From the NCBI GenBank assembly GCA_949152475.1, contig OX424564.1:1426001-1490000 (forward strand): a stretch of DNA of 64,000 bases, given 5' to 3'. Shown here piece by piece: positions 8,263 through 56,322 of the stretch (its first letter is position 1; each line of letters starts with the position of its first letter). This DNA comes from Terebella lapidaria (lineage: Eukaryota > Annelida > Polychaeta > Terebellida > Terebellidae). Both the position numbers and the translations under genes were made by a program. The notes beneath the pieces are model-generated. The model did not search any database, was not told the origin of the DNA, and saw only the letters and a list, made by a program, of their open reading frames with translations.

Positions 8263-8563
8263 CTATTTAACATATCGTAATTCGTCGTATTCAGCTGGTT
8301 GAGTGTTGACAGACTGTGGGTTGACATCTTCGTATGTCAGACAGTCATCAGCTGGTGTGGGCTCTCTGGCGACGCCTGGTTTCTTGGATGTCGCCGGTTT
8401 TGATGCCTTAGTCCCCTCGGAATTTCGGACAATTCGCGGCACACCATCTGTTACTGCGGTTGAAGAGATGCTTGATCTTCCAGACATTGAGGCCATGTTT
8501 ACATAGGTAGCATCCTGCGCTGTCGTTCCTTGTTTCTGGTTTGCCAAGATCATCGCCTGCCGC
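8263..8563 (-). CDS. receptor exon: cytoplasmic tail with tyrosine motifs and stop codon
   Basis: The acceptor is ACAATAG at 8,564-8,570. The first base completes the AGG codon left by the membrane exon, giving a basic stop-transfer run (WRRRQ). The tail of about 100 residues is Ser/Thr-rich and has four tyrosines in signalling-type settings: TYVNM (fits both YxN for Grb2-type and YxxM for PI3-kinase-type SH2 domains), LTYEDV (fits the ITIM pattern L-x-Y-x-x-V), AEYDEL (YxxL), and a terminal RYVK. LTYEDV and AEYDEL are 11 residues apart, close to ITAM spacing. The stop is TAG at 8,263-8,265. Reading the motifs as phosphorylation sites is inference. Confidence 0.8.
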
Positions 8564-11500
8564 CTATTGTATCAAATATTGTTTTGGGTAATCCATATCA
8601 CCATTTTGTTGCAAATTAGTGGTAATATATCGATAGATATAATATTATGTATATGTATGATATGATTATTATCAATCACAACTTCACAAGTATCCTACAG
8701 CATGCACATTCTATGATAATGAGGTGGTGCATTGCAATCGTTTCAACTTTTCCCTCACCTCCACATGATGACATTAACGACGATAAGGACAAAAACGGCA
8801 CATCCCAACACTGCCGCTACCACAGCAATGACCGGAACTGTGATGAGAAAGTTTTAAGTTATATTAGCCGATTTATGTCATCTCAAATGGCTGTAACATT
8901 TCAGTTTCCGTCCACAGTACCAAGATTCCGTCCGCAGTACCAAAACACTTGTCATGCAGAATGAAATAACCATACAAGGATCAACTAGGTCAAGAACTTG
9001 GACGTGAAAGGTATTGGACCCCATGAAGCATGCATTGGAAGTTTGGGGTCGGACGCATATTCTGAGCCGAATAGTATTGAATATTAGTATAGAATAGTAT
9101 TGATACGTCACATTTATATCGTGATTGGTATGTTTATAAATAGATGACCGTCATTGCATGAACACCTGACCCAGTGCAGTAGTCAGGAGGAAATTTCACA
9201 CAGGGTGGAAACGTAGTACAGACTTTTTCTGTCGATTGATATGGCTTCATAATGGTCTAAGACAACCTTTTTCAGAGGGTGTGTAAAATTTTCTCCTGGG
9301 CTAACTTTTTTATGGCCTTTTTCAAAATGGCCGACATCGAAAATTTGGTATTTTAGGAAAAAATTAAAATTATCCTCCTGGCATTATGCTCTTGGTCTAT
9401 TAAGGTGACATTTAGTTATATGGAGATATATTCTTCATCACAATACTAAAAATACCGATTCAAACGCCCCGAAAATGGAAAAAATCCAAGATGGCCGCCA
9501 ATTCTCGCTATTTTTACACAAATGCTCATAACTTTCTGCCAAATTGAGATAGGAAGCCAATTTTGGTGTCTAACCCTGGGTTTTGGGGTATGAGGATTTC
9601 AAATATATAACCAATTTTGTGATTGGGTGGTTTGAACCTGCTCAGAATCCAAGATGGCTGCCAAATTTTAGCCCGATTTCGCAAATAAGCACCAATGACC
9701 GTCATATATATCAATAACAAGCCAACTCTGGTGGCCAGTCCTGGGCTTTGGGGTATGAGGGTGCTGAAGAAATGTTCTTGTGTGTAGATGGTGACTGACC
9801 AATTTAGAGGTGTTCAAAGGCGAAGATAACCATTAATTAATGTGAAACATGTAAACGAACCCGTCTAGTAGCACCCACTCGCACAAAATCAACAGAATCA
9901 TTGAGAATCAACCACTATCAGACAGAAACAAAACATTTCTGAGCCAACTCTTCGGGAGGTCTGTTGGTGCACTGATGAGGCGCGGGCATTGATGCCAAAT
10001 TGGTCAATGTCAAATCTAACACACACATTGTGTTTGGCGTAGAGGTTTGTTTGGATCCTTCAATGATCCTAAAGACCGTTCCCATGACGCCACTCACCAG
10101 ACCATCCTTTACATTGGGATTGCTCATCATAGTCACCATGGAGCCCTTACAGAGTGTAACTTCAGCAGAAAGGTTGTATTCAATGGGTACAGGTGTTGTA
10201 TTCTTCTTCAAGCCAGATCTATTCTCGATAACATTCACAGCCACAATCTTCAATTCCTGTCTGTTCAAAGAACAGTCATCTTAACATTGTGTGCAGCAGC
10301 AACTTTTTGGAAAGGAAACACACGAAGTACATCTTGATTGGATCTGTGATCCTTAAGCATCTCCTAATTTTCAGAGCTCTATGATTCAATATCTCCGAAA
10401 ACGATTTGTCTTTTTTTGTCATTATGTCGGTCAAAGTAATAACGTGAAGTCGTCCCAAGGGTCTGCAAGAGCAGCTGGGTCTCAGTATTTGTACTCTTAC
10501 ATGCGGCAGTTGATAAAATCACTGACTGCCAGAATCATGAAGAACTCTTGTTTCTCTTGCGTTGATCCAGATGACCTCTGATGACATTCAGTATGCCTCT
10601 GCTGAGATCTCATCAATGATTATCAGCTCGAGGTTTTAATACAAAAGCCTTTGGGGGCAGTGATGAGCTCTTCAGCGAGTGGTGTGTACTTTTGTCCCAC
10701 ACCCCTTTGCATGCAAGCATGGTTCCGCCACTGATGGTAAATGCTGCTTTGCCAGATGGAGCCACACATCACAGCTTTGATGATATAAAACTTTCCTTTA
10801 CCAATATATTGAAAGTCCCCAAACATTTTCGATTCATCTTATCGATGCACCACTAGCGAGTATGAATGAACACTTTTCCTTGCATATTGTTCATGCACTG
10901 CATGAGAACTTGAGCCTGGTTCTATGAGATTGCCAAGATGCTGTGTTCTACTGACAACTGAGCCCATCTTGGTGTTGGAGCTTGGTGCTCGATCTGCCAG
11001 GTCCTCGAGACTGGTGTCCTCGAGGTAATCGTCATCTAGGTTGGCTTTTGTTTCCAAGCGTCCAGCTGCCACATTCTGGGATAATGTGTGCCAAGGTATC
11101 TTCTGCAAGATGATTTTCTTGGATCTCTTCATGGCTACTTCAACCTCTTTGATATTATTTCCAAATAGCGCTTGCTTTTCTCTGATAATGTTGCCGATGC
11201 TTGTCCTTTTGCCATAGTATGAAATGCTCCCACTCATTTAAATCCATTTCAAAGTGGTGAAGATAAAGAACCATGAGATTCTGATAATGTTTCTCACTGT
11301 CTCTACAGATGTGCAAGCTTTACTGGAAGATTTCCGTTTTGAGATCTATCCTTTATTCCCAGCCAACTTCAATGAAGCATATGGAACATTAGACCGGTTG
11401 TCATTGTTATGGGAAGAATTTTCTTCAGATGGTTCATAATCTCTATCTGGTTTACTATCAACCTTGAAGAGGGATACAATTTCAACCAGACAGGTCTTTG

Positions 11501-14500
11501 AGAATATCTACAGGAGGGCGTGCATGGTACATGTACATGTCCAGTACAGATGTACAGTGTAGCCACACGTCTTCAATGCCAGGATCTCAGTGGCCCAGCA
11601 GGAAGAGTGGAAGTGTCAGTCTGGTACTTGTCGGATCTGCAAGTATCCAAACAACATCCCGACTACAGTTTTTGAGAGGTGTGCTTGTGGCCTTGTAAAT
11701 AGCCTCCGTGACACTCATCTCCCTGTTGGTCAGATATGTTTTGCCGAGTCATTGTAGCTTATCGTCTGTCTTATCCCAGCATATTGTGCTCTGCATGGTT
11801 CTTCATGGAGGAAATGACCATCTTCACTCTGCTTCTTACTGCAATAATATGACACAATATATCGAATGCAGGCGTATGCATCAACAACATATTGTGTAGT
11901 CAAAATTAGGATTCCAGGCTTTCAAAGGGTTTTGATTTGTACTGACTTACACATCAGTCTTTGTGTTTATGCTTATGTACAACCATTTTCGTGGAGGCTA
12001 TAATGTTCCAGGCTTGTTCTTCAGCAGCGTTTTTTCACTCATCTGGATCAGTGTCTGCTGGGATGGCACATAAAAGTCTGACAGGAAGGTGGACGAGATA
12101 ACCTGAACCTGTAGGTCCTGTTACCCACTTGCATGACCTTGTATAATTCTTGGAATGAAGCTGAACATCATTTATAATGTCATGTAACTTGCTGTATCGT
12201 CAAGTTATACGTCCAGCTTAGGACTCAGAAAAGGCAGTGAATGAAAGTACCAATGTGAGGGCAATCTCCTTGTAGAAGCTCAATTGAAACAAAGTAGTCA
12301 CAGACTTTGCCAATTTGATTTGATGGTGAAGTGATCATCAATTTCAAGGAGTTTTTTTACTATCTGATCAAACATCCTGGCAGCTGTTATATGTTTTAAA
12401 ATGCCTAATAAAATATACTTGCTAATGATATGCCTAATATAATATACTTGGGTTTGATTGCTCGGAAAAAAAATTATGCCCGGTAGTGGTACTGTTTATT
12501 TTGAAGTGCGAGTGAGTGTTATTAAACAGGTTTGTTTGCATGAGTTTCATTAATTAGTCTTTATCTTGGCTTTTGGACAGTTGGATAGCTTTAAACTGGC
12601 CAATCACCATCTACACACCAAAGTATTTCTTCAGGTAGCACCCTCATGCCCCAAACCCCAGGACTGGCCACCAAAATTGCCTTCTTATTTTGAATATGTA
12701 ACGGTTATTGGTGCTTATTTGCGAAATCGAGCTATAATTTGGCAGCCATCTTGGATTCTGAGCAGCTTCGAACCATCCAATCACGAAACTGGTTATTAAG
12801 TTGGAATCCTCATACCCAAAAATTAGCCCAAGGGCTAAGAAAGGTTACCGGACAATATACATTTTAGATATTAGCCTTTTGTCCAGTGACCTTGAAAATA
12901 AAGTCACTGATAAATTCAAGGTCATGAAATTTTCAACAAATATATCACTTTTAGTATGTCCACAATAAATTCCTAAGCTGTAAAGTCGATAATAAGTGAG
13001 ACATTAGCCATTCTGTGATGTGACCTTGAAAATGAGGTCAAAGTTCAAGTTCAAGGTTATGAAAATATTCAGTATATATCATTCCTCTATATTCGCAATT
13101 GATTCCTATGCTGTAAATGTAAGTGTCAATCTATTACCACCAATACAATCAGATTTTGATGATGCCAATAAGAAACGTAAAATACTACATTTTGCAATAG
13201 AAACAAACAAAGCCCGACCAAATAGTTTATCCAAAGACACACTGGCGTCTTCAGGGGCAGACAATGTGTTAAATGTAGTTGTTTCTACTGTACACCAGAT
13301 GGAATTAGTATACAACTGCCCAACAACCTATGAAAATAATTTAGAAATCCGAATCTAACCCCATGGAATAGATACGTGACAAGTACAAAAGTACCCAATC
13401 ACAAGCCCGAAGGCTACTGAGTTGATGGTATCCTCGGGGACAGATTAAACGTCCGCCAGCAGTGACACCGACTCAGTGGTACAAATGTAAGTATCAATCT
13501 ATTACCACCAATACAATCAAATTTTGATGATGCCAATAAGAAAGGTAAAATACAACATTTTGCAATAGAAACAAAGCCCGACCAAATAGTTTATCCAAAG
13601 ACACACTGGCGTCATCAGGGGCAGATGTAAAGATGATAATAAGCGACATATTAGCCATTTTGTTCTCTGACCTTGAAAATGAGATCAAAGGTCAAATTCT
13701 AGATCACCAAAATATTCAGCATACATCATTTCCTATATGTTCACTATGGACCCCTAAGCTGTAAATTTGATAATAAGCGAGATATAAGCCATTTTGTATT
13801 CTGACCTTGAAAATAAAATGACTAACCTTGAAATTTAGGTCAAGGGTCAAATTCAAGGTCACTAGAATATTCAGCATATATCATTTCCTATATGTTCACA
13901 ATTGATTCCTAAGCTGCAAAGTCGCTAATAAGCAAGATATTGGCCATTTTGTCCTGTGACCTTGAAAATGAGGTCAAAGGTCAAATTCAAGGTCACGAGA
14001 ATATTCAGCATATATCATTTCCTATATGTTCACAATTGATTCCTAAGCCGTAAAGTCGATAATAAGCGAGATATTAGCAATTTTGTCCTGTGACCTTGGA
14101 AATGAGGTCAAAGGTCAAATTCAAGGTCACGAGAATATTCAGCATATATCATTTCCTATATGTTCACAATTGACTCCTAAGCCGTAAAGTCGATAATAAG
14201 CGAGATATTAGCAATTTTGTGCTATGACCTTGAAAATAAGGTCAAAGGTCAAATTTGAGGTCATCAGAATATTCATATATCCTTTCCTGTATGTCCATAT
14301 TTGATTCCTAAGCTGTAAAGTCGATAATAAGCGAGATATTAGCCATTTTGTCCCGTGACCTTGAAAATGAGGTCAAAGGTCAAATTCAAGGTCACGTGAA
14401 TATTCAGCATATATCATTTCTTACATGTCCATAATTGATCACTAAGCTGTAAAATCGATAATAAGTGAGATATTTGCCATTTTGTCCCGTGACCTTGAAA

Positions 14501-17500
14501 ATGAGGTCGAAGGTCAAATTCAAGGTCATGACAATAATCTGCACAAATAGATAAACAATGGCGCCTCGCCTCGACACTGATGTTGTAAACAGAGCTTCGT
14601 GTGAACTGACTTTTTGGTGTGAAATTTAAAGTCACAAGTGCCCTCCTCTGTATATCTAACAGGGATACCCTGTAGAAGTGAAATAAGACTGTTGAAAGGG
14701 AGTACACTGATGAAATTTAACATTTTCAGTGTGTGAATGTGTTGTCCCCTGTAACATCGCCCACCTGGACTTTGTCAGTTTTGTGTGAGAGTCGCTGCTT
14801 GAGTCTGGTGGAACCCGCACGTACAAAATCATTCGTCACGCATGACTGCCGTCAAAATTCCCCACTGACCACCGAATGATATATCATCACGTCCCATTTC
14901 TGACCCCGTATCTGATTCCTTGGCGCCTCCAACTTTGTCACAACGTACACCATGGTACTGTGTAACGGTCCTCCTCATAAGCCCTGCCCATATAATAAAC
15001 GTGGAAAGGAAGTTATTCTGTGCCAAGGAGACCTGACACTATGTCTTGACTGTGAACATGCAAGATTTCCTGACATATCTCGAATAAGTCAGAATGCAAC
15101 CGGTATATCTTCAGAGAAACCACCCAACACTCGCTCCAGTGGGAAACGCACACAGCAAACAGCACCCCCACCCCCACAGGACCGAGGGCGTCCACAAAGT
15201 CCGGAGGTCATTGTTTGTCCACCCTTAAGTCCGGAAAGCATCAATGCAAAACCAGAATCTTCAATCAGTGTCCTGTGCGACAAAATAAGTGACCTCACTC
15301 GTCTGTGTCAAAACATCCGTGATGAACAAACTGCCCTCAAACATGTTCTTTTTGAAAAGATTGAATCGTCTGAAAAAAAAGTACTGGGGGTCCTTGAACA
15401 GAAGATCGCTGATGTTAACGTGGACATTGCGTGCGTAGTTAGCCGGTTCGATGTAGTGGAGGAAGAACTGAGGATGCTGGGTGTACGAGAGTTCGACCAT
15501 AACAATAGCCTTGTCGTGACCCGTCTCCCTGAAGAAGCTGGAGTTGGAGACCAAGAACAAGCCCAGGCATTGGTTACTGATGGTCTGGAGCTTGATGCGG
15601 TGGTGAAAAGAGCAAAGCGTCTAGGAAAGCGGCCGGGAAATATCGGCATCCTGAAAATAGAGTTAGGATCCACAGATCTCAAGATACAGGCACTCCGCAA
15701 CAAAAAGAACCTTGCCAAAAAGCCCCGCTATAACAGAGTATATGTCAGGTCATCACAGTCGCATGAAGAAAGAGTCGCACAACGGAATCTCAAGACGGTT
15801 ATGGACGCAATCCCCGGTTTTGGTGGCAAGTACCGCCAAAACTTTTCGCTGGAAATGGTGTTCTCGTAGAAAACACGCCCAGACAAACTGACCTACGTGC
15901 TTCCAACGATGACGACGACTTCGGACCCTATCCACGCTACCAGGCACAGGACAACCCGACGGACCATGCACAGAACAATCTGACGGATCAGACAGCATTC
16001 CCCCATTTGGCAGCAGTGCGACGTTAGGATCGAGCCCAGCCACACAAGGAGGAACTCCACGTATCGACGTGGAACGTTAATGGATGGACTGAAATGAATA
16101 AGACACTAAGACAAGAATTGATAATCAGATATAACGATGATATATATTGTATTTGTGAATCCCATCTAGGCGCATCTAGCCCACCGTTACATGTAGACGG
16201 ATATAAATGGTTTGGTAACGACAGAACATTAATCCACAGAAAGGCCAGAAAAGGCTCAGGCGGAGTCGGTATTTTAGTTAAAGCTGTAAGTATGTTATAA
16301 ATAGATAAACGACCATGTAAAAAAAATATTATGATAACGACCACGATCTTCCCCGACGGATAAACCGAACGTAAAACCACAGAACCACGCGTTGTTTGTT
16401 TTGCTTCGAATGTGGGCGGGTCTATGCACTGGCGCGAGTCAGGCCGCCCACGACAGAGGCCAGAGGCAGTCGGCTGTAACGGCGAAGTGGTATAAAGCCA
16501 TTCTTGCAGTGTGTGTCGATGATCATTTGACATGTTTCCCACAGCACAGATGTCAGAGAACACACAAACTGCAAAGTATAATTGCATAATATCCATACGT
16601 GCACACAATTACTCATATAATTAGGGCTACATATTTCCCTCCTAGCCGTAATGAACGTATTATCCATTGGTGTGACGAATTTGTATGGTTCCCAGTAATT
16701 CACGTGCATAGATATATCCCCGTAATGTAGCCACATCAACAGTAAAGTTATCATACATATTTGGGCCCAAGTATTATATCCTGCGCCGTCCTCTATTTTC
16801 AATAAAGATTAAAAAGGTGCGAGACGGATTAAATGGTATGTTTTCAGTGAACGAGTAGTATTAAGGAGCAGTGTATGGTACTTGGGCCCATATTTGTACA
16901 CAACATACAAACAGGCTTTGTGACCTGGTAAATTTTGTACTCATATGTTGTTGAGCAGTGCTCAGTCATTGTATGCTATATTACTAACCTAGAGTACATG
17001 CCAATAGGTGCATACCTGTAACATAGCATGTACATGTACAATTGGACAGACTATCAAGGGTGACGCTATCAATGTTATATGATTACGAAATATTCCGTCA
17101 GAGATGTCACCCATATTGTCACACCCTACATTCAACCAATATGCTATAAACACTGAAATATAGATATACACAATGAAATGCATTACATACGGACATTGAG
17201 GACGATGTGTATGCCTCCTTTGTCTATTGAGTATGCCACATTGTAGGCCAGTCGCCCCCTCCTTTTATACGGCCGAAAATCCCCCTGGTCGGCCTAGGCC
17301 AAAGGCACCTACTTACGTCACCAGTCAGCACGAAAGGTTCAGGGGATGTCTCAAAAGGTCGAAGGGATTGTACAGTATCTCTTTATATAGCATACTTACA
17401 GCTTTAAGGAAGAAATCATGGACTTATATGATGTGGAAGTTGTTGATAAATCAGTAGACGGTATTATTGCACTGCGACTACACAACAGAGTTACAGAATG

Positions 17501-20500
17501 TGTGGTCCTATTATTTTGTTGTTATTTGCCCCCAGAGAATTCATCTAGGGGGAGAGAGTCCAACTTTTTCTTCAGTCACCTCTCGTCACTGTTATATATG
17601 TATATAGAAAGTTCAGATTACATGTTATTTTGTGGAGATTTTAATGCTCGTATCGGAGGTTTGTCTGATATTATTGAGGGAGTTGACAACGTGTGTGAAA
17701 GACATATACTGGACAAAGGTAAAAATAAACAAGGTGAAGAGTTTATTGAATTTATGAATGATATGCGTGTGTGTGTTTTGAATGGTAGATTTTCAAATGA
17801 ACTGGATAATTATACATGTATATCGCATAAGGGCAAATCAGTTGTGGACTATATGGTAGTCCCTCATGAAACACTTGGAAACTATGTCGATTTTAGAGTT
17901 ATGACTGTAACCGAACTTATAAATATGTACGGTGTAGAAATATTAATTTCTGACCAATGTCGGCCACCCGATCACTCTATTGTTAGCGTTACTCTACAGT
18001 TGAGTCCAGGAGATATCCTGCTACTCTCAGACACCCGGTCTGATCCGCCAACTTTTAATATAAATAATAGTAACGAAGAACCAAAACAACGTAGAAGATA
18101 CCGCGTTTCTGAGATACCAGGGGATTTTATGCAGACTGCTGGGTGGCAGACTGTTGTTAACAACATGATTGTACAAATAGAAAACAGAAGGAATGATCAG
18201 CTGAATATTGATCAGTTATATGCTCAAATGTGTGAAAAGATATTTCATGAAATGGACGAATTTTTAACATATAAAGATAGCTCTAACAAAACGGTGCGTA
18301 AAAATCTGCGTTGCGGTAAACCATATTGGGATGACAAACTTACCTTGTTGTGGAAAGAAATGTGTTCCCTTGAGAAAAGTTATCTGAAATATAAGGGACC
18401 GCGTAGATCTAAGGAAAAGCATAGAGTGAACTTTGTGAACGCCCGCGCTAAGTTTGACAAATATCTCCGTCAATGCCAAAGAAAATATAGAAGAGAATGT
18501 ATTAAAGAACTTGATGAAAATTGTACTGAAGACCCCAAAAAATTTTGGGAACATACCCAACGTCTTGGACCTAGAAAACTGAGAAATATCCCAATGTCCG
18601 TTAAAACTCACCATGGCTTGTCGTGTGACCCAACTGTCATCTGTGATGAATGGGCGAATGCTTTCCAGAGTTTATATAATAATCCAAATCGGGTAATTCA
18701 TAACACTCCTTTCAACGATTTTGTACATAACTATAAAAATAACGCGGAGCGTGAAATGAATGCGGACGGTTTTGTTGGAAACGTGTTGTTAAATCAGTCT
18801 ATATCTTTCGACGAAATCAAACACGCTGTGCGAAAAATTAAAACAAAAAAGGCGGTTGGGATTGATTTCATACCAAACGAAATATTGAAGTGTGACGGGA
18901 TTCATGTCGTTTTATACAAGTTTTTTATGATGTTTTTCGATACCGGTGTTATTCCCTCTTTATGGAGAAAGTCGGTGATTAGTCCGATTCCTAAAGGGGC
19001 ATCAAAAGATCCCCACGTACCACTGAACTATAGAGGAATTTCTGTGCTCTCATGTGTTTCAAAAATATATACTTCCATTTTGAATAAACGCATCGTCAAT
19101 TATTGTGACGAACTTAATATAATTGCTGATGAGCAAAACGGTTTTCGTAAAGACAGATCGTGCTCCGATCATCTATTTTCTCTCACCAGTATCATACGTA
19201 ATAGGCTTTCGATGAAAAAATCCACATTTTGTGCTTTCATAGATATGGAGAAGGCATTCGATTGGATCGATAGAGATCTTTTATTGTATAGATTATTGTT
19301 ATATAATATAGATGGCAATATATATAAAGCAATTAAAGCGTTATACTCGGATACATTGTCTTGCATTAAGATAAACGATATGTTTAGTGGATATTTCGAT
19401 GTAAGCAGTGGCGTACGACAAGGTGATAGCCTGTCGCCTACACTATTTAATATATTTATAAACGGACTCGCAGAGGATATAAAACAACTCAACAAAGGCG
19501 TGAATTTAAATGATAGAAATGTTTCTATTCTGCTTTATGCAGACGACATTGTTTTATTATCAGAAAATGAGTTGGATCTACAAGGTATGTTATCGCATAT
19601 GTATGACTGGTGTAAAACATGGGGTATTAATGTAAACTTATCAAAGTCAAATGCTATGCACTTTCGGTCCCCTAGAGCCAATGTTTCACAATTTAACTTT
19701 CGATTTGGTGATCTCGATGTCAACATCACGAGTCAATATAAATATTTGGGTGTAATGTTGGACGACAAGCTAAAGTTTGATATATGTGGAAAATTATTGT
19801 CTGAATCTGCTGGTAGAGCACTTGGAAATGTAATTTCGAAATTCAAGGAAATGAAGGACACTAGTTTTAAAACATTCTCTAAGTTGTATGAATGCGGTGT
19901 GAACAGCGTGAGTGATTATGCATCAGAAATTTGGGGCGCTAAAGATTTTCCAACTGCTCAGCAATTACAATGTCGCGCTATAAGGTATTTTTTAGGTGTA
20001 CATAGATATGCACCAATCCCGGGGATGGAGGGGGACATCGGTTGGATAAGTCCAAAATTTAGACGATTTATTAAAATTATGCAGTTTTGGAACAGGATGG
20101 TTGTAATGGAAGACTCGCGCTTGACTAAGTATATATTTAATTGTGATTATGCAATGTGCAAATTAAATTGGTGTAATGATATAAAAAATATATTTACATT
20201 CGTTGGACAAGGTAATATATTTGAAGAAAAAACTGTTTGTGATATTGTAAACTTCAAAAATATTTTGTATCAAGAAATGGAAACAAAATGGTTTACAGAT
20301 GTACACAATAAACCAAAATTACGTACCTATGTAAGATTCAAACACAAATTTGAGGCAGAGTCGTATGTTGTAAATTATATGTCGAAACGAAACAGAAGTT
20401 TACTTGCACAATTTAGATTAGGTATACTCCCGTTATTTGTTGAAAGTGGTAGATATAGCAATATACCGTTGGAAAATAGGCTATGCACAATTTGTAATTT

Positions 20501-23500
20501 AAATGTGGTGGAAGATGAATTCCATTTTCTCATGATATGTCCTCGATATACTGCCTTGCGTGAGTTTATGTTCACGAAAATATCTAGTGTACATGCCGAT
20601 TTTCACACCTATGATAACGATGAACGTTTTGTATTTATTAACAATAACTGTCAAAAACAACTAGCTCTCTATATTTGTAAGGCCTGGGAAGTGCGTCAAT
20701 CGTTTGTTTTTAATGTAAATGATATGTAGTGACATATAAGCCTTGTTGGCTGGGTACAATATGTTGAAATACTATTTCCTGTATAAATATGATGAATGTA
20801 CATGTCACTGAAATAAACAATATACTACTACTACTACTACTACTATATCATTTCCTATATGTTCATAATTGATTCCTAAGCTGTAAAGTCGATAAGAAGT
20901 GAGATATTAGCCATTTTGTCCTGTGACCTTGAAAATGAGGTCAAAGGTCAAATTCAAGGTCATCAGAATATTCGGTATATATCATTTCTTATATGTCCAC
21001 AATTGATTCCTAAGCTGTAAAGTCGATAATAAGCGAGATATTAGCCATTTTGTTCTTTGACCTTGAAACTGAGGTCAGAGGTCAAACTCAAGGTCACGAG
21101 AATATTCAGCATATATCATTTCCTATATGTCCACAATTGATTCCTAGTCTCTAATCTCAATATTAAGTGAGATATAAGGCATAATGTGTCCCATTATAAA
21201 GCATAGGAAAATTTAACATGGGAAAGTCCCATTTGGGCCAAGTTTGGCCCAAAATGGCCCACTTCGAGCGATTCAAGCGCAACGAAACTTATACACATCA
21301 CAGGAGTACATATGGGGAGTGTTGTGTATCAAAAAGAAAAAAAGTTACTGAACAGTTTTTGAGAAAATGGCCGCCAAAGTCCAAAATCAGGCATTTTTCG
21401 TCGAAAACGGCCGACATTTTGAAAAAAATGCGAAAATCGAAAAACAAAAAAAAGCCTTTCCTTGAAATATTTTTAGGTATTTTTGTGCAAAATTTCATAA
21501 AGATTCGATCATATACTTTAAAGATAAAAATGTGAACGGACGACGGACGGACGGACGGACGACGGACGACGGACGCAACGCCATGCCAATAGGTTATCGG
21601 ACCATAGGTCCGGTAACCTAAAAACCCAGGGGTAGACACCAAAATTGACTTCCTATCTCAATTTGGCAGGAAGTAATGAGTATTTGTGTAAAAACGGCGA
21701 GAATTTGGCGGCCATCTTGGATTCTTTTTCATTTTTGGGGGTCTGAATCGGTATTATTAGTATTGTTAGGAAGAATGTATTTCCATATAACTAATATGTA
21801 TCATATTAGACCGAAAGCATCATGACAGGAGAATAATTTTGATTTTTTCCTAAAATACCAAATTTTCGGTGGCGGCCATTTTGAAAAAGGCCATAAAAAA
21901 GTTAGCCCAGGAGAAAATTTTACACACCCTCTGAAAAAGGTTGTCTTAGACCATTATGAAGCCATATCAATCGACAGAAAAAGTCTGTACTACATTTCCA
22001 CCCTGAGTGCTATATGCTCAAAATTCCTCCTGACTACAGAAGAAAACACCCACTCAGATTTCTGTTGCTATCTGCCTGTAGCTCGGTCTCACTCTCGAGG
22101 TCATGTGGGTCGCTGTTACTGGTATTGGGTACTGTAGTGGCTACTGGGGTCAATGTTGAGACCACGTCTTGGGGCGTGCTTCTTGAGGTTGTGACTTCCG
22201 GCTCAGTGACTGGTGAGTTCATGGTCCAACAATATTTCAGCAAGTAAGGCTCTCATCACTTACCCTACGACATCAACTAACAAATGAAATTGCAAAAAAA
22301 AATGTATCAAAATAGTTGACTTACTGTGATAACATCGGAAAGACAAGCGTACAAGCTGTGCAGGTTCGGAATAACAACGAGAGTAGTTGCCAACGATACT
22401 GGCCCTGGCCACACAGCTTCTCTGGCCAGTACAAGTCTCCAGAATAGGGTGCGTCTTAATTGTTCTTTGGCAATCAGATCTAGATATTCTCGCACCGCGG
22501 CACTCCTGGGAGGTGAAGTCTGTCGATGAGGGGCGTAAAGTTCCATACCTCAAGGATATGAAGTGTAGAACAGATGAACTCGGACACACCAGTTCGTCAA
22601 AGGTGTTACCAGGACATCGATGTGCATATGACAACCCTGGAAGATATTACACAGAAACTGAATGAATATATTTACTTAATTGAAGGTAAATTCATCTTAT
22701 CGTGTAATATCTACTACTCATATTACTGTATTTATGCCACAAAATAGTGTGTAAATCTGACCAAACGGTAAACGTGTTGGCCATATTTCCAGATCGTTTG
22801 TTCATGGTAATATTCGTACCGGGGTTTCCCGTAATATGGCCCACCCGATTTATGGCCCATGGGCAAATTTTCGGGAGCAAATCCCAAAAGATGGCCCATG
22901 GACGATAATTCGGATTCATTTCTTTAAAAAAAATTGGTGATGTGATTTTTTCTATAACGTATTTTCGCTGAAAATTTAAACGATTTATTGAACATGGACG
23001 TATTCCATCAAACATGTGTCAAGTTTTTACATCATGAAACTGTCACAGGGGCGTCAAAATCACAACGGGGTGACTGTTACGCTTATTAGTTTGAGAGAAT
23101 TGCGTATAGGCGCCAAATTGCACGGCAGAAAGTTTCAAGTAAAAACAGTATACTTACTTTAGGCCTAAACTATATGAACTATATTTGTACTATAATATTT
23201 CATGTGAAATATATGTAACTGGAATAACTGAATGATGCGCAATTTTTTTATCTATGGATGAGATTTCTTTTTCTATTACCTGATGTTTCGCTAGTATATA
23301 CATGCAATTCAAAACTAAACATATATCCGTCTAAAACTAAACATATATATTCAGTATTTTGGCAATGTATTCGTGAAAAACGTTTTTTCCGAAAGATCGC
23401 CCATGGGCCATAATGCGGATTCGACTTTTATTCGGTCATATGCTATTTTTTGAAAGATCGCCCAGGGCCATATTACGGAAAACTCCAGTACCTGGGGTTT

Positions 23501-30003: not shown

Positions 30004-30059
<56 letters not shown>

Positions 30060-48000: not shown

Positions 48001-51000
48001 AAAAAAATACCCAAGGTGTCTTTTTGCATGCACTAGACAAAAATATCACCAACTTTTCATGACAACGACAAATGGAAGCATACAGTAAGGACAGTAAGTA
48101 CTTATTATTCTTTATTTTTATCTTATTTTGGCAATACATTGTCCTGCTATACCACAGAGTGTTGTAGGAAATGTACAGGAACGAAAGATACCGTTTTTTT
48201 CTTCTGTTAATATGTAGTTTTTTCTTGGGGGAGGGGGAGATATATTCCCGGTTCCTGGTCACCTTATTCCCGGGAAACGGGAACTCTGATATCTTGATAA
48301 TTCCCGGGAATTCCCGGGAACTCCATTCCCGGGATTAAACCCTAATTATGACATAAAATATGGATAATGTCATCGCTGACTTATTTCGGTAGCAATAAGT
48401 CCACGCATGGACAAGCTCCTCACCAGTAGTACCATGGGGTCAAAATTACACTAACAGATATAGTACGGCTAACGCCGCACAATGATTACCCCTTATGTAT
48501 GGCACAGAAATATGTGTGTATTTTTTTGTGCAGCACGGTATGACAGTGAACTGAAAACAATGCAGTAGCTCCCGACAAATTCTATGCCAATCATAGCTTG
48601 AACTCTGGTCTCCAGAACGATTACACGGCAAATAAGCAATGGCATATACATGTTCATTCCAACTTGGATTTCCCTGGCATTCACCTAGTAAGATGATGAA
48701 TTGAATAGATCATTCTAGTTCAACCCTAAATACTAGTTCATTTGTATTTTTCATCATCTTACTAGGTGAATGCCAGGGAAATGTTTTTTTCAAAGACCAT
48801 AAACGAGCATCACATTCATCATCGAGTAATGTATCCAGGAATTCAAAAGAATCCACCTTGGTACTAATTCTGTAAATTGATTCTTGTCTTCTGAGCTTAA
48901 TATGTGGAAATGGAACTGCTTTTACTATCAATCTGGCCCCTTTTAGGATTTCTACTCATATCAGTCGCACCATGGTTGGAAATGTGCTTTTCGCCAGTTT
49001 CATTGTCAGCCATTCATAATTCTGAAAGCATTCAAAAGTCACAGGTACTCAGTAATGATAACATTGGATTCTCCATTATCAAAAACATAGGTATAGACAC
49101 CAAAACCATGTCTCTACCTGCAACAGAAGCTGAGATATAGCCCAAAACATGATTTCAGAGTTTTCAACGGCGGCCATTTTGGAAAAGGCCCAGAAAACCT
49201 AGACACATCTTTAATAATCAGTAATATGTTCGTCAGAAAATCATCGGGGGGGGGGGGGGGTGGGATGCAGGCACACCTATTATACATGGCCGACTATAAG
49301 AGCCGTGAATAATTTGTCAAAATTCAAGCAAAAAAATTCTTGCTGCAGAACATTCAATATAATTATCATTTTTCATTATAAATGAGTTGGCCTTGTTTTT
49401 CCGGTCAGTTTGATACCAATTTTGTGGATATTGGATAAGTTTTGACAGGCATAGGTAGAAATAACGAATTTCGCAAACACCCCGTTTGCAAAAAGAAAAA
49501 TGGCTGCCATATCCGCCACAGGCCATATTGAGAATGGCTTCCTAGCTTATATTGACGAGTGAGTGATATTTTACCACTCCGCAAAGTTTCATGCTTTTAT
49601 CACAATGTGAACAATTTTTTGCTAAGAACCTGCACTGTAATAAATGCCTGCTGAGAACCACTTTTTATTTGTTAGAAAAAGGATTATTAACATTACTGAA
49701 ATATAATATTTATCTATAGCAACCATTCATCTCAACAATGGCAGTTTTTCTTCAATTCAACTATTCCAGTTATCGTTTAAATTTGTATATTCTAATCTAA
49801 TCTGCTTCAACGTATTGTCATTTGGTCCAGTTCCGTCTGGCATTATTACAGCACGAAAAGCTAATCCACGACACCATACAAACCTGTCTGACACCGGTAG
49901 TGGACAACAAGCTGGTCCGTCACGAGACTTTCTCTGCTGGCACATGAAGTGTTCCAAACACCAATGGCATACAAGTTCAGATCGCCACAGGATGCTTGAC
50001 CATTGCAGGTTTGCTTGATATGATTACTGGCATGGCTGGCAGAATCATAGGCTCGTAGTGCACAGTCATAGTCTGTGTCAGAGATGTCACAGGTGTCTCG
50101 CCCGGCGTAGTCTACGAAGTACATGTCCAGTATCTGGACCGTGAACCCGTACGGACAGGATATGTCACTGATGATATCCCCTCTGCATGTCCTGCTCACT
50201 TGGATTTCTGCAGAATTACATCCAACCATATTTTACATATCAAACTCCAACTCATTAGCCATATGGTTTGTGATAAGGTATTTACATGTATGTATTCATC
50301 ATACACCATCAAAAGATTTATTCAGTGTTAATGGGTATTTGTCTCCATCTAGCAAAAACTAAAGTCTAGAGAGTTGATGTCTAGCACTAAGGTGTGTGTG
50401 AATGTTCCATGTGGGTCTGTACTACCATTAGGTGTACAACAGAAACAACTCTATTAACACACTTTTTGTGTTTGATGACTTCGGTGTGGCTTTACAGATA
50501 AACTTATGCTGGGGATTGTTTATTTTCCTAAAATGTTTAATTTAAACGATTTCTCCATTGTCCTCAATGGTGGCATATGTTTGGCACATCATGCTGTATG
50601 CCATGTATCACAGTAGTAATTCTCACAAGATGGGATATTTCCTTGAATTGGCCCGGGTAATCACACACATGAAGTACCTGTATGTATCCATCTCTACTTG
50701 CTTTAAAAAGTGTATGGTTATCACGGTCCATTAAGTTCGTTGGAATGGAGTGGACTTACCTGGTTTGAGGGGGACACATTCATATCGCATGTCCATCATG
50801 TTGGATTCCATCGGGCCTCTGCCGCAGTCAATGTCCAGAGTATTATGTTTTATTATTCGGCAAACGATTTTGCCATTACACCAATCCTGCCAGTAACGAA
50901 AATGGTTTTCATGATCCTCTTGCAGGTCTCTGACACAGGTGGTCGAAGCCGGGAACTTGGTACACGTTCTGTCTCCTGCTCTCACTCCGTACTCAACCCT

Positions 51001-51086
51001 GGTGACATTGATCACTGTACCAGAGGGGCAAGGGGTTTGTTGTCCTGCGTCGAGCTTTTTCCCGGCACACACGGTCATCGATAATT
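8263..51086 (-). CDS. host gene: transmembrane SUEL-lectin receptor, six visible exons
   Basis: Exons in order on the minus strand: 51,086-50,760, 50,207-49,884, 22,636-22,325, 22,209-22,054, 8,837-8,759 and 8,563-8,263. Each has AG acceptor and GT donor signals. The phases are 1-1-1-1-1-2, so all junctions fit, and the joined exons total 1,499 bases: an open frame of 499 codons including the stop after a phase-1 entry. The predicted protein has three SUEL/Gal_lectin domains, a Ser/Thr stalk, one membrane helix and a tail of about 100 residues. The SUEL fold binds galactose or rhamnose in sea-urchin egg lectin and fish rhamnose-binding lectins. A type I cell-surface receptor is inferred. The signal-peptide exon and possibly other domains are not seen. 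Because phase-1 exons can be joined freely, linking the 49.9-51.1 kb pair to the exons at 22 kb across 27 kb is less certain than the 22 kb to 8 kb part. Confidence 0.65.
8759..8837 (-). CDS. receptor exon: single transmembrane helix
   Basis: A 79-base exon, phase 1 in and phase 2 out. The acceptor follows a pyrimidine-rich stretch ending CTCATCACAG. The donor is AG|GTGAGG. It codes for [20 protein letters not shown] plus NVIMW, an uninterrupted hydrophobic run of about 24 residues, followed by arginines from the next exon. This is a typical single-pass membrane anchor, with the acidic stalk before it and basic residues after it, fitting an outside-N, inside-C orientation. Confidence 0.8.
9179..9900 (+). 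repeat. left inverted arm of the 12.9-kb TIR element
   Basis: It begins GTAGTCAGGAGGAAATTTC. Its reverse complement is found in two pieces: 21,621-22,037 matches the outer 420 bases and 12,490-12,822 matches the inner 300. The arms have drifted by scattered substitutions and small gaps, so the element is not recent. Confidence 0.8.
9918..11700 (-). pseudogene. broken Pif1/Helitron-type DNA helicase
   Basis: Minus-strand frames in order: a segment with [18 protein letters not shown] near 11,530, resembling the region before the helicase core in Helitron-type proteins; [14 protein letters not shown] near 10,745, matching the VAPTGKAAFNI motif of Pif1 enzymes; LIIIDEIS near 10,610, the Walker B box; [17 protein letters not shown] near 10,420; and near 10,170 [20 protein letters not shown], which matches the C-terminal LCKGxxVMLxxN...DGLVNG motif. 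The order agrees with a helicase core. Several stops and frame changes break it, for example a stop just after Walker B at about 10,590. A clear Walker A was not found. The family unwinds DNA 5' to 3' and is carried by several transposon groups. Confidence 0.7.
11701..12489. other. interior of the TIR element without a readable gene
   Basis: Lies between the helicase remains and the inner right arm. Composition resembles the helicase part, so it is probably decayed coding sequence of the same element. I could not match any motif on either strand. Confidence 0.4.
12490..12822 (-). repeat. inner part of the right inverted arm
   Basis: Reverse complement of about 9,590-9,900, including the CAATCACCATCTACACAC and GGCAGCCATCTTGGATTCTG stretches. 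It ends at an A-run where a tandem-core element has inserted. The outer rest of the arm resumes at 21,621 within the same CCAAAACCCAGG context. Confidence 0.8.
13115..13626 (+). repeat. repeat R1, double copy
   Basis: A 147-bp unit (13,115 to about 13,262) and a second, shorter copy (13,484-13,626) flank about 220 bases, giving a direct-repeat layout like a very small LTR element or a partial tandem. Both units start GTAAGTRTCAATCTATTACC and end CAGGGGCAGA. TGTAAA occurs on both outer sides (CTGTAAAT before, GATGTAAAG after) and may be a target-site duplication. It sits within a satellite monomer of copy A. Confidence 0.7.
13630..14535 (+). repeat. satellite array, about seven monomers of 131-134 bp
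   Basis: TGACCTTGA recurs at about 13,957, 14,091, 14,225, 14,356 and 14,490. Each monomer reads TGACCTTGAAAATGAGGTCA, AAGGTCAAATTCAAGGTCA, then a stretch with ATTCAGCATATATCATTTCC and GTCGATAATAAGCGAGATAT. Degenerate monomers also occur at 12,860-13,110. The array stops where a LINE begins and resumes at 20,847. Confidence 0.9.
14952..15869 (+). CDS. LINE ORF1 protein (RNA-binding, coiled-coil)
   Basis: 305 residues, intact. The first 45 residues have a Cys/His-rich finger ([29 protein letters not shown]) like the PHD-type fingers of some LINE ORF1 proteins. A Pro/Ser-rich linker to about residue 100 follows, then a predicted coiled coil (about 110-175, [20 protein letters not shown]). From about 180 to 290 there is a region resembling the Transposase_22 RRM-like domain of L1-type ORF1 ([43 protein letters not shown]). 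ORF1 proteins coat LINE RNA and act as nucleic-acid chaperones. The start was chosen as the first ATG ahead of the finger. ORF2 sequence begins about 160 bases downstream. Confidence 0.85.
   Translation: MVLCNGPPHKPCPYNKRGKEVILCQGDLTLCLDCEHARFPDISRISQNATGISSEKPPNTRSSGKRTQQTAPPPPQDRGRPQSPEVIVCPPLSPESINAKPESSISVLCDKISDLTRLCQNIRDEQTALKHVLFEKIESSEKKVLGVLEQKIADVNVDIACVVSRFDVVEEELRMLGVREFDHNNSLVVTRLPEEAGVGDQEQAQALVTDGLELDAVVKRAKRLGKRPGNIGILKIELGSTDLKIQALRNKKNLAKKPRYNRVYVRSSQSHEERVAQRNLKTVMDAIPGFGGKYRQNFSLEMVFS
16030..20729 (+). CDS. LINE ORF2: endonuclease and reverse transcriptase, split by a TTAA insertion
   Basis: The endonuclease starts near 16,048 ([33 protein letters not shown]) and stops at the insertion at 16,282. 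Past the insertion the same protein continues: [22 protein letters not shown] and PPDHSIV. Without the insertion the two parts join in frame through a single TTAA, giving roughly 1,190 residues. The reverse transcriptase shows [10 protein letters not shown]...[22 protein letters not shown] (about residue 607 counted from 17,418), [10 protein letters not shown], and YADD (about 707). A C-terminal finger (CTICNL...DEFHFLMIC) follows near residue 1,030. No ATG lies ahead of the endonuclease in this frame, so ORF2 may start by a non-standard route. The copy has no other break. Confidence 0.88.
16282..17403. mobile_element. 1,122-bp TTAA-flanked TIR element (piggyBac-type MITE)
   Basis: The ends are AGCTGTAAGTATGTTATA and its reverse, TATAGCATACTTACAGCT. 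TTAA lies directly outside both ends (16,278-16,281 and 17,404-17,407), the target duplication used by piggyBac elements. Removing the element and one TTAA restores the LINE frame as ILVKEEIMDL, which proves the boundaries. No transposase is encoded. The TIR happens to contain GTAAGT at the left and TTACAG at the right. Confidence 0.9.
20847..21180 (+). repeat. satellite array, right part (2-3 monomers)
   Basis: Continuation of the 133-bp array of copy A beyond the LINE, with the same TGACCTTGAAAATGAGGTCA start and CACAATTGATTCCTAAGCTG stretch. The last monomer grades into the unique 3' part of the element (CCCATTATAAAGCATAGG). Confidence 0.9.
21621..22037 (-). repeat. outer part of the right inverted arm
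   Basis: Reverse complement of about 9,179-9,590, with shared stretches such as CCTTTTTCAGAGGGTGTGTA (on the left-arm strand). It ends CCTGACTAC, the mirror of GTAGTCAGG at 9,179. Confidence 0.85.
22054..22209 (-). CDS. receptor exon: Ser/Thr-rich stalk
   Basis: 156 bases, phase 1 in and out. The acceptor is ACTCACCAG and the donor A|GTGGGT. The 52 codons are rich in Thr, Ser, Pro, Glu and Asp ([20 protein letters not shown] and more), as in O-glycosylated stalks between lectin domains and the membrane. No cysteine is present. An alternative donor two bases further would break the frame into the membrane exon, so this one was chosen. Confidence 0.7.
22325..22636 (-). CDS. receptor exon: third SUEL/Gal_lectin domain
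   Basis: 312 bases, phase 1 in and out. The acceptor is TATCTTCCAG and the donor GTAAGT. It codes for one SUEL-type domain: a start with [17 protein letters not shown], an LRYGTL core in place of the usual A-x-[27 protein letters not shown] in the place of the C-x-GK-x-x-C-x-V signature, and an end LSFRCYH in the place of V-x-Y-x-C. Eight cysteines are expected for the fold and most can be placed. The exact DPC motif is missing (SRCYSEP), so sugar binding may have changed. Confidence 0.8.
22816..23492. mobile_element. 677-bp TIR element without genes
   Basis: The ends GTACCGGGGTTTCCCGTAAT and (reversed) GTACTGGAGTTTTCCGTAAT continue alike into ATGGCCC, a TIR of about 28 bp with three mismatches. 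GGCCCATGGGC palindromes follow near both ends (22,850 and 23,400). No ORF of note. The superfamily is unknown. Confidence 0.7.
23493..24764. other. about 1.3 kb with no recognised feature
   Basis: Intronic if the receptor model is right. A stretch at 23,880-24,160 repeats the words CATAAATGTGACCACCC and CAAATATGACCACCC and several GATGATGTA words, suggesting a decayed low-order tandem repeat. No ORF or element ends are seen. Confidence 0.4.
24765..27140 (+). mobile_element. fossil Ty3/gypsy-type retroelement with finger and TatD-like nuclease remains
   Basis: Parts in order: a reverse transcriptase fragment with [13 protein letters not shown] near 24,810; a Pro/Arg-rich stretch; a CxxC finger followed by an [13 protein letters not shown]-type HxxxxH helix near 25,640-25,700; and TatD-like pieces from about 26,280: [41 protein letters not shown] and ILLESNAPY. 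TatD enzymes are metal-dependent DNases with these HxH, HCR, HCFSG and ETDAPY motifs in this order. Many breaks are present and the copy is old. Whether polymerase and TatD parts belong to one element or two neighbours cannot be decided here. Confidence 0.55.
27290..28638. other. about 1.3 kb with no recognised gene; poly-C tract
   Basis: AT-rich and without a defensible ORF. A run of about 16 C lies near 27,990. A 27-base stretch at 28,325 starting GGACCGATTCACAGAG recurs in reverse with one mismatch at 31,205-31,231, hinting at a larger inverted-repeat element into which the LINE at 28,645 inserted. Confidence 0.4.
28645..30225 (+). pseudogene. 5'-truncated LINE ORF2 with 6-bp target-site duplication
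   Basis: The copy starts inside the reverse transcriptase ([20 protein letters not shown]) and runs through [60 protein letters not shown] and the C-terminal part (IHNINTRSS-like). The frame shifts at a run of about ten G near 28,963, and a stop lies near 29,186. ATACCG flanks both ends (28,639-28,644 and 30,226-30,231). The 3' end is a run of TCAAA units. It looks CR1/Rex-like. A 165-base 3' end of the same family is inserted at 45,154. Confidence 0.88.
30005..30058 (+). repeat. (ATT)n microsatellite in the LINE 3' UTR
   Basis: About 18 uninterrupted ATT/TTA units within the 3' untranslated part of the LINE that ends at 30,225. Confidence 0.95.
30232..31300. other. about 1.1 kb without a recognised gene
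   Basis: Begins with the second copy of the LINE's target duplication. AT-rich with many A/T runs. The only structure seen is the 27-base inverted match of 31,205-31,231 to 28,325-28,351. Confidence 0.4.
31372..31510 (+). repeat. 15-bp minisatellite, about eight units
   Basis: Units follow CCGTTCGCGGAAGMA with small changes (CCACTTGCGGAGGTA, CCGTTTGCGGAAGCA). In one frame they spell Pro-Phe-Ala-Glu-(Glu/Ala/Val) pentapeptides, but no gene context supports translation. The stretch is CpG-rich and leads into the TATA box at 31,582. Confidence 0.85.
31582..31589 (+). promoter_or_regulatory. TATA box of a possible RNA polymerase II promoter
   Basis: TATAAAAG preceded by CCCTGGC and followed by GGGGAGCGGACGG in a CpG-rich stretch (31,330-31,750). 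An initiation site would be expected near 31,610 (CTCTGAGAGCACTG). The stretch to 32,216 (AATAAA at 32,199) may be a transcribed repeat such as a lone LTR; no ORF fits a host gene. Confidence 0.4.
32760..34170 (+). repeat. satellite array of copy B, interrupted by a MITE
   Basis: Monomers of about 133 bp from 32,760 to 33,258 and from 33,669 to 34,176, with a partial one after 35,938. The right-hand ones are well kept (GAGGTCAAAGGTCAAATT perfect at three sites); the left-hand ones are more diverged. Confidence 0.9.
33262..33664. mobile_element. 403-bp MITE
   Basis: The ends CATAGTTCCGACGACATC and (reversed) CATAGTTCCGATGATACC form TIRs, with AATT on both sides (33,258-33,261 and 33,665-33,668). 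The interrupted satellite monomer reads on across it, which fixes the borders. No ORF. Confidence 0.85.
34179..35937. mobile_element. 1,759-bp TA-flanked TIR element rich in GGGCGTTTTGCCC motifs
   Basis: The ends GGGTAGAGGCGAGCAAAACG and (reversed) GGGTAGAGGCGGGCAAAACG are flanked by TA on both sides (34,177-34,178 and 35,938-35,939), as for Tc1/mariner-type insertions. The word GGGCGTTTTGCCC or its reverse occurs about ten times in two clusters (34,189-34,440 and 35,630-35,925). It has no transposase, only short frames. It lies in the satellite core of copy B. Confidence 0.85.
36433..37757 (+). repeat. duplicated segment, copy 1
   Basis: Matches 44,742-46,203 in direct orientation over its full length, starting AAAAAGATACAC and ending ATCTGTTGGCATTGAGT, with only scattered differences. 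The preceding 3' end of a hairpin-ended element is also shared. It contains a G-run near 36,880. The ORFs in it (for example 36,964-37,158) are open in both copies but short and unrecognised. Confidence 0.9.
37759..38313 (+). repeat. tandem duplication, two units of 278 bp
   Basis: Units start near 37,759 and 38,036, both with CTATTGGTCTATAGCGGGC and both ending AGTAGTAGGCCTATATGCGG. They differ at only a handful of positions, so the duplication is recent. No coding capacity seen. Confidence 0.93.
38345..40764. mobile_element. 2.4-kb TIR element with internal direct repeats in the arms
   Basis: Left arm: CGCCTAATAGGC, TGGGGAACC, then two copies of GAGCGACAATCCTCGGAGT. The right arm is the reverse of this (40,690-40,764), again with two copies, continuing into ATTCAGATGAAC on both sides. 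The repeated 18-mer looks like a paired transposase-binding site. The interior has no recognised gene. Confidence 0.75.
40820..41782 (+). pseudogene. Penelope-type reverse transcriptase fragment
   Basis: The main ORF (from 40,833) reads [20 protein letters not shown], then [41 protein letters not shown] and [17 protein letters not shown]...[17 protein letters not shown]. Related sequence ([33 protein letters not shown]) continues to about 41,780. The RT fingers, the YIDD box (D-D at about residues 167-168) and the thumb are present, but the N-terminal part is missing and no GIY-YIG endonuclease was found. Assignment to Penelope-like elements is by general resemblance; another non-LTR-type reverse transcriptase family is possible. 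A non-coding 3' tail may reach about 41,990. Confidence 0.6.
41990..42295. other. short unassigned stretch with (CT)n
   Basis: Holds a (CT)n run at about 42,122-42,147 and a second short one near 42,157-42,168, and otherwise AT-rich DNA without a recognised feature. Confidence 0.6.
42310..43205 (+). mobile_element. fossil Ty3/gypsy-type gag-protease fragment, copy 1
   Basis: Readable parts: a Gag-like stretch ([18 protein letters not shown]), a zinc-knuckle-like ECFRCGK, and an aspartic-protease active site ([13 protein letters not shown]). This order is that of gag-pol in LTR retroelements. Many breaks; old. No LTRs are seen on either side. The right half (from about 42,690) is repeated at 46,204-46,690. 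Confidence 0.7.
43290..43450 (+). repeat. degenerate minisatellite, about five units
   Basis: Units of roughly 25-40 bases built on CACTAACACTAMGATATTGA with variable ends. Confidence 0.7.
43458..43573. repeat. 116-bp near-palindrome (long hairpin)
   Basis: Left arm GACTGGATACAGTGTTT..GG, AGGTCGTGTCTG; right arm is its reverse, ending CACTGTATCCAGTC. The arms, about 50 bases each with few mismatches, close on CGAGCTTGCGAG. CpG-rich in an AT-rich setting. It could be a short foldback MITE. Confidence 0.8.
43840..44741 (+). mobile_element. hairpin-ended element, copy D, with a different tandem core
   Basis: The 3' end (44,640-44,741) is the same as in copies A and B: TAAAAATGTGGACGGACGAC, then GGTTATCGGGCCATAGGTCC with the closing GTAACCTA. 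The core instead holds two to three copies of another unit of about 237 bp (44,043-44,280 and 44,280-44,520; shared words CAAGTAGAACCRGAGTTA, GCCGATTATGTGATTTTCAC, GACCGAGCCATTAACATA). The left border is not seen; the start given is approximate. Confidence 0.6.
44742..46203 (+). repeat. duplicated segment, copy 2
   Basis: Second copy of 36,433-37,757. It differs by a 165-base LINE insertion (45,154-45,317) and a few small gaps. It is joined directly at its right end to the second copy of the gag-protease fragment. Confidence 0.9.
45154..45317 (+). mobile_element. 3' end of a LINE, inserted in duplicate copy 2
   Basis: Closely resembles the last part of the LINE ending at 30,225 (GGGACCACAATGGAAACAAG, CACTTTTTTGTGTTATCCTG) and ends in ATCAA units. 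GAT is repeated at its borders inside the GCGGATCCAGG site that is whole in copy 1 at about 36,855. It is a strongly 5'-truncated insertion. Confidence 0.85.
46204..46690 (+). mobile_element. fossil gag-protease fragment, copy 2
   Basis: Near-identical to about 42,690-43,180, covering the zinc-knuckle and protease (VNVTIDTGA-like) part. Its left edge joins the duplicated segment; its right edge is cut by the element starting at 46,690. Broken. Confidence 0.75.
47586..48344. mobile_element. 759-bp hAT-type non-autonomous element with perfect 8-bp TSD
   Basis: The ends TAGGGTTTAATATATTCCCG and (reversed) TAGGGTTTAATCCCGGGAAT are followed by repeated CCCGGGAA words. ATTATGAC lies on both sides (47,578-47,585 and 48,345-48,352). 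TAGGG-type ends and 8-bp duplications are hallmarks of hAT transposons. No transposase; a poly-C run near 47,890. Confidence 0.92.
48668..48782. repeat. perfect 33-bp inverted repeat around a 49-bp loop
   Basis: The arm at 48,668-48,700 begins ATTTCCCTGGCATTCACC; the arm at 48,750-48,782 is its exact reverse complement. It lies inside the 46.7-49.6 kb element. Confidence 0.95.
49645..49883. other. intronic or 3' flank of the second lectin exon
   Basis: AT-rich, no feature beyond the donor at 49,878-49,883 that ends the lectin exon on the minus strand. Confidence 0.5.
49884..50207 (-). CDS. receptor exon: second SUEL/Gal_lectin domain
   Basis: 324 bases, phase 1 in and out. The acceptor is TAATTCTGCAG and the donor ACAG|GTTTGT. 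The domain begins [20 protein letters not shown], continues with [13 protein letters not shown] and [18 protein letters not shown] (the C-x-G-x-x-x-C centre of the family), and ends LVVHYRCQT, close to the family's V-x-Y-x-C end. Cysteines are conserved; the YGR and DPC signatures are weakly kept ([13 protein letters not shown]). It follows the first lectin exon by a 0.55-kb intron. Confidence 0.85.
50208..50759. other. intron between the first two lectin exons
   Basis: 552 bases from the donor GTAAGT of the first lectin exon to the acceptor of the second. No repeat element recognised. It is the only intron of the gene seen here that is free of transposons. Confidence 0.75.
50760..51086 (-). 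CDS. receptor exon: first visible SUEL/Gal_lectin domain
   Basis: 327 bases, phase 1 in and out. A strong acceptor (TTTTTTATTTGCTTCCAG) and GTAAGT donor frame it. The domain reads [38 protein letters not shown], a [15 protein letters not shown] centre that fits the C-x-GK-x-x-C-x-V signature best of the three domains, and an end MRYECVP. The usual A-x-YGR is EYGVR and the DPC motif is replaced by DIDCGRG. A signal peptide must come from an exon further right that I could not identify. Confidence 0.85.
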
Positions 51087-51374: not shown

Positions 51375-51415
<41 letters not shown>

Positions 51416-54510: not shown

Positions 54511-54539
54511 TTCATATGTCATCAAAATTGTTCAGTAAC

Positions 54540-56230: not shown

Positions 56231-56322
56231 ATCAAATGTCGCTACCAAGTCGATGAGAGTATTTCGCATGTGCTCTGCTGAAGCTTTCAAGTTGCAAGAC
56301 TTTCAATGAGCTTAATGACCTT

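Follow-up and report, generated by a model that had tools for sequence, protein, structure and literature searches.

A candidate membrane receptor with three tandem SUEL/RBL domains and a multi-tyrosine cytoplasmic tail in Terebella lapidaria

Six exons on the minus strand of the window, i.e., the 64,000 nucleotides of the Terebella lapidaria contig OX424564.1 (positions 1,426,001 to 1,490,000) analyzed here, quite probably belong to one gene for a membrane protein, whose joined product comprises three SUEL/RBL domains, a Ser/Thr-rich stalk, one membrane helix and a cytoplasmic tail with the tyrosine motifs YVNM, LTYEDV and YDEL. Membrane SUEL proteins are already known, and it is the combination of three domains, stalk and multi-tyrosine tail that distinguishes the present one. 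Should transcripts confirm the gene, the SUEL family, which has largely been studied as secreted marine lectins, would become linked to phosphotyrosine-type receptor signalling, and those invertebrate receptors whose tails carry tyrosine motifs would gain a further type of ectodomain in addition to immunoglobulin.

The six-exon gene model

Read on the minus strand, the six exons join in phase, as the original prediction had claimed, into 498 residues followed by the stop codon TAG, whereby the exit phases of exons 1 to 5 are 1, 1, 1, 1 and 2, AG precedes each of the six exons and GT follows exons 1 to 5. The gene is spread over approximately 43 kb, with gaps of 27 kb between exons 2 and 3 and of 13 kb between exons 4 and 5. 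Exon 1 (50760..51086; phase 1 in, 1 out) encodes SUEL/RBL domain 1, and among the minus-strand AG/GT sites its acceptor ranks within the top 0.2% and its donor, CAG/GTAAGT, within the top 0.03%. Domain 2 is encoded by exon 2 (49884..50207; phases 1-1; acceptor top 17.8%, donor CAG/GTTTGT top 4.8%) and domain 3 by exon 3 (22325..22636; phases 1-1; acceptor top 3.2%, donor top 2.6%). The stalk exon 4 (22054..22209; phases 1-1) possesses the weakest splice sites of the model (acceptor top 38%, donor top 16%), its GC content being 0.53 as compared to 0.35 and 0.45 in its flanks. The transmembrane exon 5 (8759..8837; phase 1 in, 2 out; Kyte-Doolittle peak 3.28; acceptor top 7.9%, donor GAG/GTGAGG top 0.26%) is followed by exon 6 (8263..8563), which encodes the cytoplasmic tail with its three motifs and ends with TAG. 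The acceptor of exon 6 at 8563 is the sole frame-keeping AG among seven in the examined range, and the Arg-Arg pair following the helix exists only through the exon 5/exon 6 junction. The weak acceptors of exons 2, 4 and 6 (top 18%, 38% and 26%, respectively) count against the model. As a candidate 3' end, the first AATAAA after the stop was identified at 7119..7124 on the minus strand, which as a consensus match only would imply a 3'UTR of 1.1 kb; ATTAAA occurs at 7602, 7226 and 7131, in between this site and the stop.

For exon 4, an alternative in-phase donor after 22093 scores better than the donor at 22054, and the frame is also kept when the exon is skipped, hence the length of the stalk may vary. 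At the opposite end, the gene model is 5'-incomplete within the window, possessing neither a start codon nor a signal peptide, and exon 1 of the model is probably not the first exon of the gene. A screen of 51087-64000 for a signal-peptide exon (ATG exon, hydrophobic core with a 10-residue mean of at least 2.4, phase-1 donor scoring at least 1.5) gave zero candidates on the minus strand, as did the plus-strand control, and a looser screen yielded one further candidate 1-1 exon at 52134-52250 that is devoid of known domain features. The start of the protein, and possibly further domains, would thus be encoded beyond the window or by exons that differ in phase.

Exon phases, Pfam matches, base composition and the membrane exon support the architecture of a membrane receptor. 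The four ectodomain exons are all of the 1-1 phase type, which is typical of shuffled extracellular modules. GC contents of 0.49-0.53 were found for all six exons versus 0.33-0.47 for their flanks, whereby the contrast is least beside exon 3, whose flank of 0.47 includes exon 4. A screen that required a donor score of at least 3 and took exon 5's own score as acceptor threshold, which favours this exon somewhat, gave 99 candidate exons, 61 of them on the minus and 38 on the plus strand, and of these exon 5 alone is transmembrane-like. When a profile built from the three domain exons was compared with all six-frame ORFs of at least 15 residues, it retrieved just these three exons (next best E 0.84), and the corresponding search for a second tail exon found none in the window (next best E 1.8).

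Two alternative partitions of the exons have to be weighed against one continuous gene. First, exons 1 to 4 might encode a secreted triple-domain lectin, with exons 5 and 6 used elsewhere or in a minor isoform, which would agree with the weak donor of exon 4, with the stop codon reached after six extra residues when this donor is read through, and with the 13 kb that separate exon 4 from exon 5. This is considered unlikely, however, as neither AATAAA nor ATTAAA is present within 1.3 kb past exon 4 (the first is located at 20714, inside a retrotransposon ORF), as the entry phase 1 of exon 5 matches the other junctions, and as a scan of low sensitivity found no other host domain on the minus strand in between. 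Second, exons 1-2 and exons 3-6 might derive from adjacent genes of one family, 27 kb apart, as the length of this intron and the merely moderate exon 2 donor GTTTGT could indicate. Strand and phase do match across the gap, though, the window holds three SUEL exons only and is without a second tail exon, and the reverse-transcriptase ORFs at 28536-29848 and 40794-41603 would lengthen the intron, so that neighboring genes are judged quite improbable. The absence of other host domains from the gaps is weak evidence, as the Pfam block scans are insensitive: the long-block scan recovered one of the three known SUEL exons (exon 1, E 0.035) and missed exons 2 and 3. These scans covered all three minus frames for 9001-49000, two of three for 49000-64000, and on the plus strand ten selected stretches, one of which was actually of the minus strand. 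Rfam and tRNA scans returned no matches.

The introns of the gene considered here as one unit contain retrotransposon ORFs and repeat arrays, and such insertions would explain some of the length of these introns. Intron 4 harbors, outside the receptor, a non-LTR retrotransposon on the plus strand (14916..20726) with a 317-codon ORF (14916-15866) that matched nothing in Pfam or NCBIfam and an uninterrupted 1112-codon endonuclease/reverse-transcriptase ORF (17391-20726; RVT_1 E 1.3e-38; Exo_endo_phos_2 E 4.8e-6, just under the cut-off). Both ORFs are taken to form one element, which is possibly young. The two reverse-transcriptase ORFs within the 27 kb intron likewise reside on the plus strand (28536-29848, E 9e-11; 40794-41603, RVT_1 E 9.2e-6, below the cut-off). 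Upstream of the receptor exons, reverse-transcriptase ORFs are located on the minus strand at 60651-61770, whose RVT_1 matches (E 1.4e-12 and 1.9e-8) fall into two frames and are thus frameshifted. Tandem arrays of a 134-base repeat with AGGTCA-type runs occur at 12889-14543, 20844-21182, 32769-34178 and, on the opposite strand, 52559-53504; from array to array the members of this family are 81-90% alike. A minisatellite of 15/30/45 bases of the GCGGAAGAACCGTTC type lies in minus-strand open frames at 31370-31501, and two 278-base tandem copies at 37763-38313, being 98% identical, represent a recent duplication. On the plus strand, the ORFs of 55184-57096, one of which encodes an OTU-like cysteine protease domain (56257-57096, E 3.2e-6), may belong to a transposon, and 1-2295 is a 765-codon open frame, GC-rich (58% over 1-2000) and lacking any Pfam or NCBIfam match.

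SUEL/RBL domains and the sugar-binding site

As proposed originally, three SUEL domains are present: the whole product matches PF02140 in three stretches with E 3e-8 and 34.4 bits, exceeding the curated cut-off of 31.4, and each of the three domains holds eight cysteines, which in RBL domains form four disulfides (PMC2430599). The HMM check suggested for the individual exons turned out less favorably, as exons 1, 2 and 3 alone reach 24.2, 16.9 and 16.8 bits (E 4.4e-5, 0.0087 and 0.0092), each under the cut-off. Domains 2 and 3 share 21 and 22% identity with domain 1. Compared with a structure library, the three-exon profile gave as best match the L-rhamnose-binding lectin 5h4s (E 2.4e-12) and also matched Latrophilin-like protein 1 (8suf, E 0.0035), and domain 1 weakly matched ADGRL3 (E 0.016). 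At the level of sequence, membership of the SUEL/RBL family is confirmed; AlphaFold, run for domain 1 on a three-row alignment, failed to give a fold model (mean pLDDT 42.3). Further Pfam matches (Tox-SGS E 0.0098, TMEM100, EphA2_TM, TMEM154 and Wzz; E up to 1) were all below the curated cut-offs and were rejected. When viral contigs were scanned with the SUEL alignment and with the tail, no relative was found, a result that says nothing about animals.

Structure-function work on mouse latrophilin-1 describes a Glu following the first Cys and a Lys of loop 2 as needed for rhamnose/galactose binding, which was lost or strongly diminished with every substitution tried, among them E42D and K120R (PMC2430599). 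Domains 1, 2 and 3 of the present protein carry A, R and P in place of the Glu; at the position of the Lys, taken as eight residues before the last Cys according to the ADGRL3 alignment row, they carry N, D and Q. With both sugar-contact residues replaced in all three domains, the designation as a lectin receptor becomes doubtful: the family assignment stands, but canonical sugar binding is unlikely as far as two residues allow predicting it. For receptor-attached RBL domains it was argued that they recognize non-carbohydrate ligands (PMC2430599), and by analogy a protein or glycoprotein would be the most likely ligand of the domains described here. The absent sugar site hence predicts a protein or an unusual glycan as ligand, and not rhamnose or galactose.

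Tail motifs and proposed mode of action

The membrane helix and the tail with YVNM, LTYEDV and YDEL were found as had been predicted, the tail comprising 100 residues and four tyrosines, with those of the three motifs located 21, 78 and 93 residues into it. To judge the motifs, their frequencies in shuffled tails were determined and are given as raw values, uncorrected for the eight motif definitions applied. LTYEDV is the only match to the ITIM pattern [SIVL]xYxx[LIV], which bears out the original assignment as far as the pattern goes, but the match is weak alone, such a site turning up after shuffling in 12% of the tails, or in 17% once Thr is permitted at -2. In a human ITIM screen a threshold of 0.25 was used, below which the value of 0.12 obtained for LTYEDV falls; according to the same work, more than 1600 ITIM-bearing membrane proteins were estimated for the human genome (PMC11460946), hence an ITIM alone means little. 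The match is close to chance and is retained as a weak lead. By the same shuffling, the presence of at least three Yxx[LIVM] sites (1.4% of shuffled tails) and of YxNM (0.6%) appears more notable than the ITIM match, the corresponding values being 11.5% for YxxM and 7% for an acidic hemITAM-like site. The ITAM resemblance assumed for LTYEDV and YDEL did not hold: the first site ends with V, the spacing is 11 as compared to 6-8, and the strict pattern Yxx[LI] x6-8 Yxx[LI] has no match in the tail, while a loose pair (V allowed, spacing 11) has a shuffle frequency of 0.013. Both labels, "lectin" and "ITAM", should consequently be dropped.

For the protein as a whole, a single-pass type I receptor is proposed that would be exposed at the cell surface, bind a non-sugar ligand through at least three tandem SUEL/RBL domains and signal through its tail tyrosines, a proposal whose chances are viewed as about even. 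Going by the motif preferences of SH2-type partners, YVNM would suit PI3K p85 or Grb2, LTYEDV an SHP-type phosphatase and YDEL a further SH2 protein. In the suggested sequence of events, the RBL domains, being without sugar contacts, would bind a protein or glycoprotein ligand, and clustering of the receptor, whose Ser/Thr stalk is probably O-glycosylated, would lead to phosphorylation of the tail tyrosines. Phosphorylated YVNM could then recruit PI3K p85 or Grb2, LTYEDV an SHP-type SH2 phosphatase, and YDEL a further SH2 protein.

The same receptor might instead use its motifs as endocytosis signals of the AP-2 type and function in scavenging or clearance independently of SH2 signalling. YxxPhi is the consensus for AP-2 sorting and all three tail motifs fit it, which together with an ITIM barely above chance would argue for uptake; SH2 domains, on the other hand, prefer acidic or Asn contexts, and it is in such contexts that the tyrosines of YVNM, LTYEDV and YDEL are found. 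Tyrosine positions 21, 78 and 93 do not discriminate between the two, and pure endocytosis is considered rather unlikely. Judged from the motifs, the tail tyrosines would most likely serve either SH2 recruitment or endocytosis, i.e., signalling or uptake. Going beyond the signalling receptor proposed above, it may tentatively be suggested that the protein represents a receptor class of invertebrates, serving immunity or self-recognition, in which an RBL recognition ectodomain released from sugar binding is combined with a costimulatory-type YxNM and an ITIM; this is possible, with the odds clearly against it. If true, the paired-receptor logic of vertebrate immunity would be realized on an unrelated fold.

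Comparison with known systems

EVA1C, formerly named Fam176C, carries a FAM176 region, a family that the Pfam search with the joined protein did not retrieve at E up to 1. The view held originally that SUEL proteins are mostly secreted overlooks established membrane-bound members, namely EVA-1, the latrophilins and PKD1-like proteins (PMC2430599). Like the protein described here, EVA-1/EVA1C (C21orf63) is single-pass with a tandem SUEL/RBL ectodomain, and its sugar residues are described as substituted too (PMC2430599). As EVA-1 was reported to require both its domains and its tail for function (PMC4133157), the present gene could encode a divergent EVA-1 orthologue acting as guidance co-receptor. 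This is held to be very improbable: the description of EVA-1 is that of two domains and a short tail (PMC4133157), a difference by description and not by sequence, whereas at least three domains, a stalk and a 100-residue multi-tyrosine tail are found here, and the FAM176 match is missing.

Latrophilins (ADGRL) likewise carry an RBL domain on a receptor, in line with the weak matches to ADGRL3 and Latrophilin-like protein 1. They are, however, seven-helix adhesion GPCRs, and this identity was rejected, as the joined protein has one hydrophobic segment and no seven-helix or GAIN Pfam match. Three tandem SUEL domains are shared with the L-rhamnose-binding lectin 5h4s, in which all three domains carry CEG in contrast to CAG, CRG and CPG here; other tandem L-rhamnose-binding lectins are the fish and sea-urchin egg lectins. 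Such tandem lectins are without the membrane helix and tail seen in the present protein.

As to the tail, a literature search, which had most subscription journals outside its scope, found no RBL protein with an ITIM/ITAM tail in the passages on rhamnose-binding lectins and such motifs; in two papers that mention both, the motif is that of a different protein. Tyrosine-motif tails are described for several invertebrate receptors, namely the oyster membrane receptor CgIgIT2 with its immunoglobulin domains (PMC11999971), Botryllus FcoR, which combines immunoglobulin and sushi domains and was reported along with Hydractinia candidates (PMC12065747), and a Halocynthia hemocyte glycoprotein with an ITAM/ITIM-type tail (PMC5465252). 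The motifs of CgIgIT2 and FcoR are called classic or canonical (PMC11999971, PMC12065747), whereas a loose ITAM-like pair is present here, and their ectodomains are immunoglobulin-based, that of FcoR with sushi domains in addition (PMC11999971, PMC12065747), where the protein from T. lapidaria carries RBL domains.
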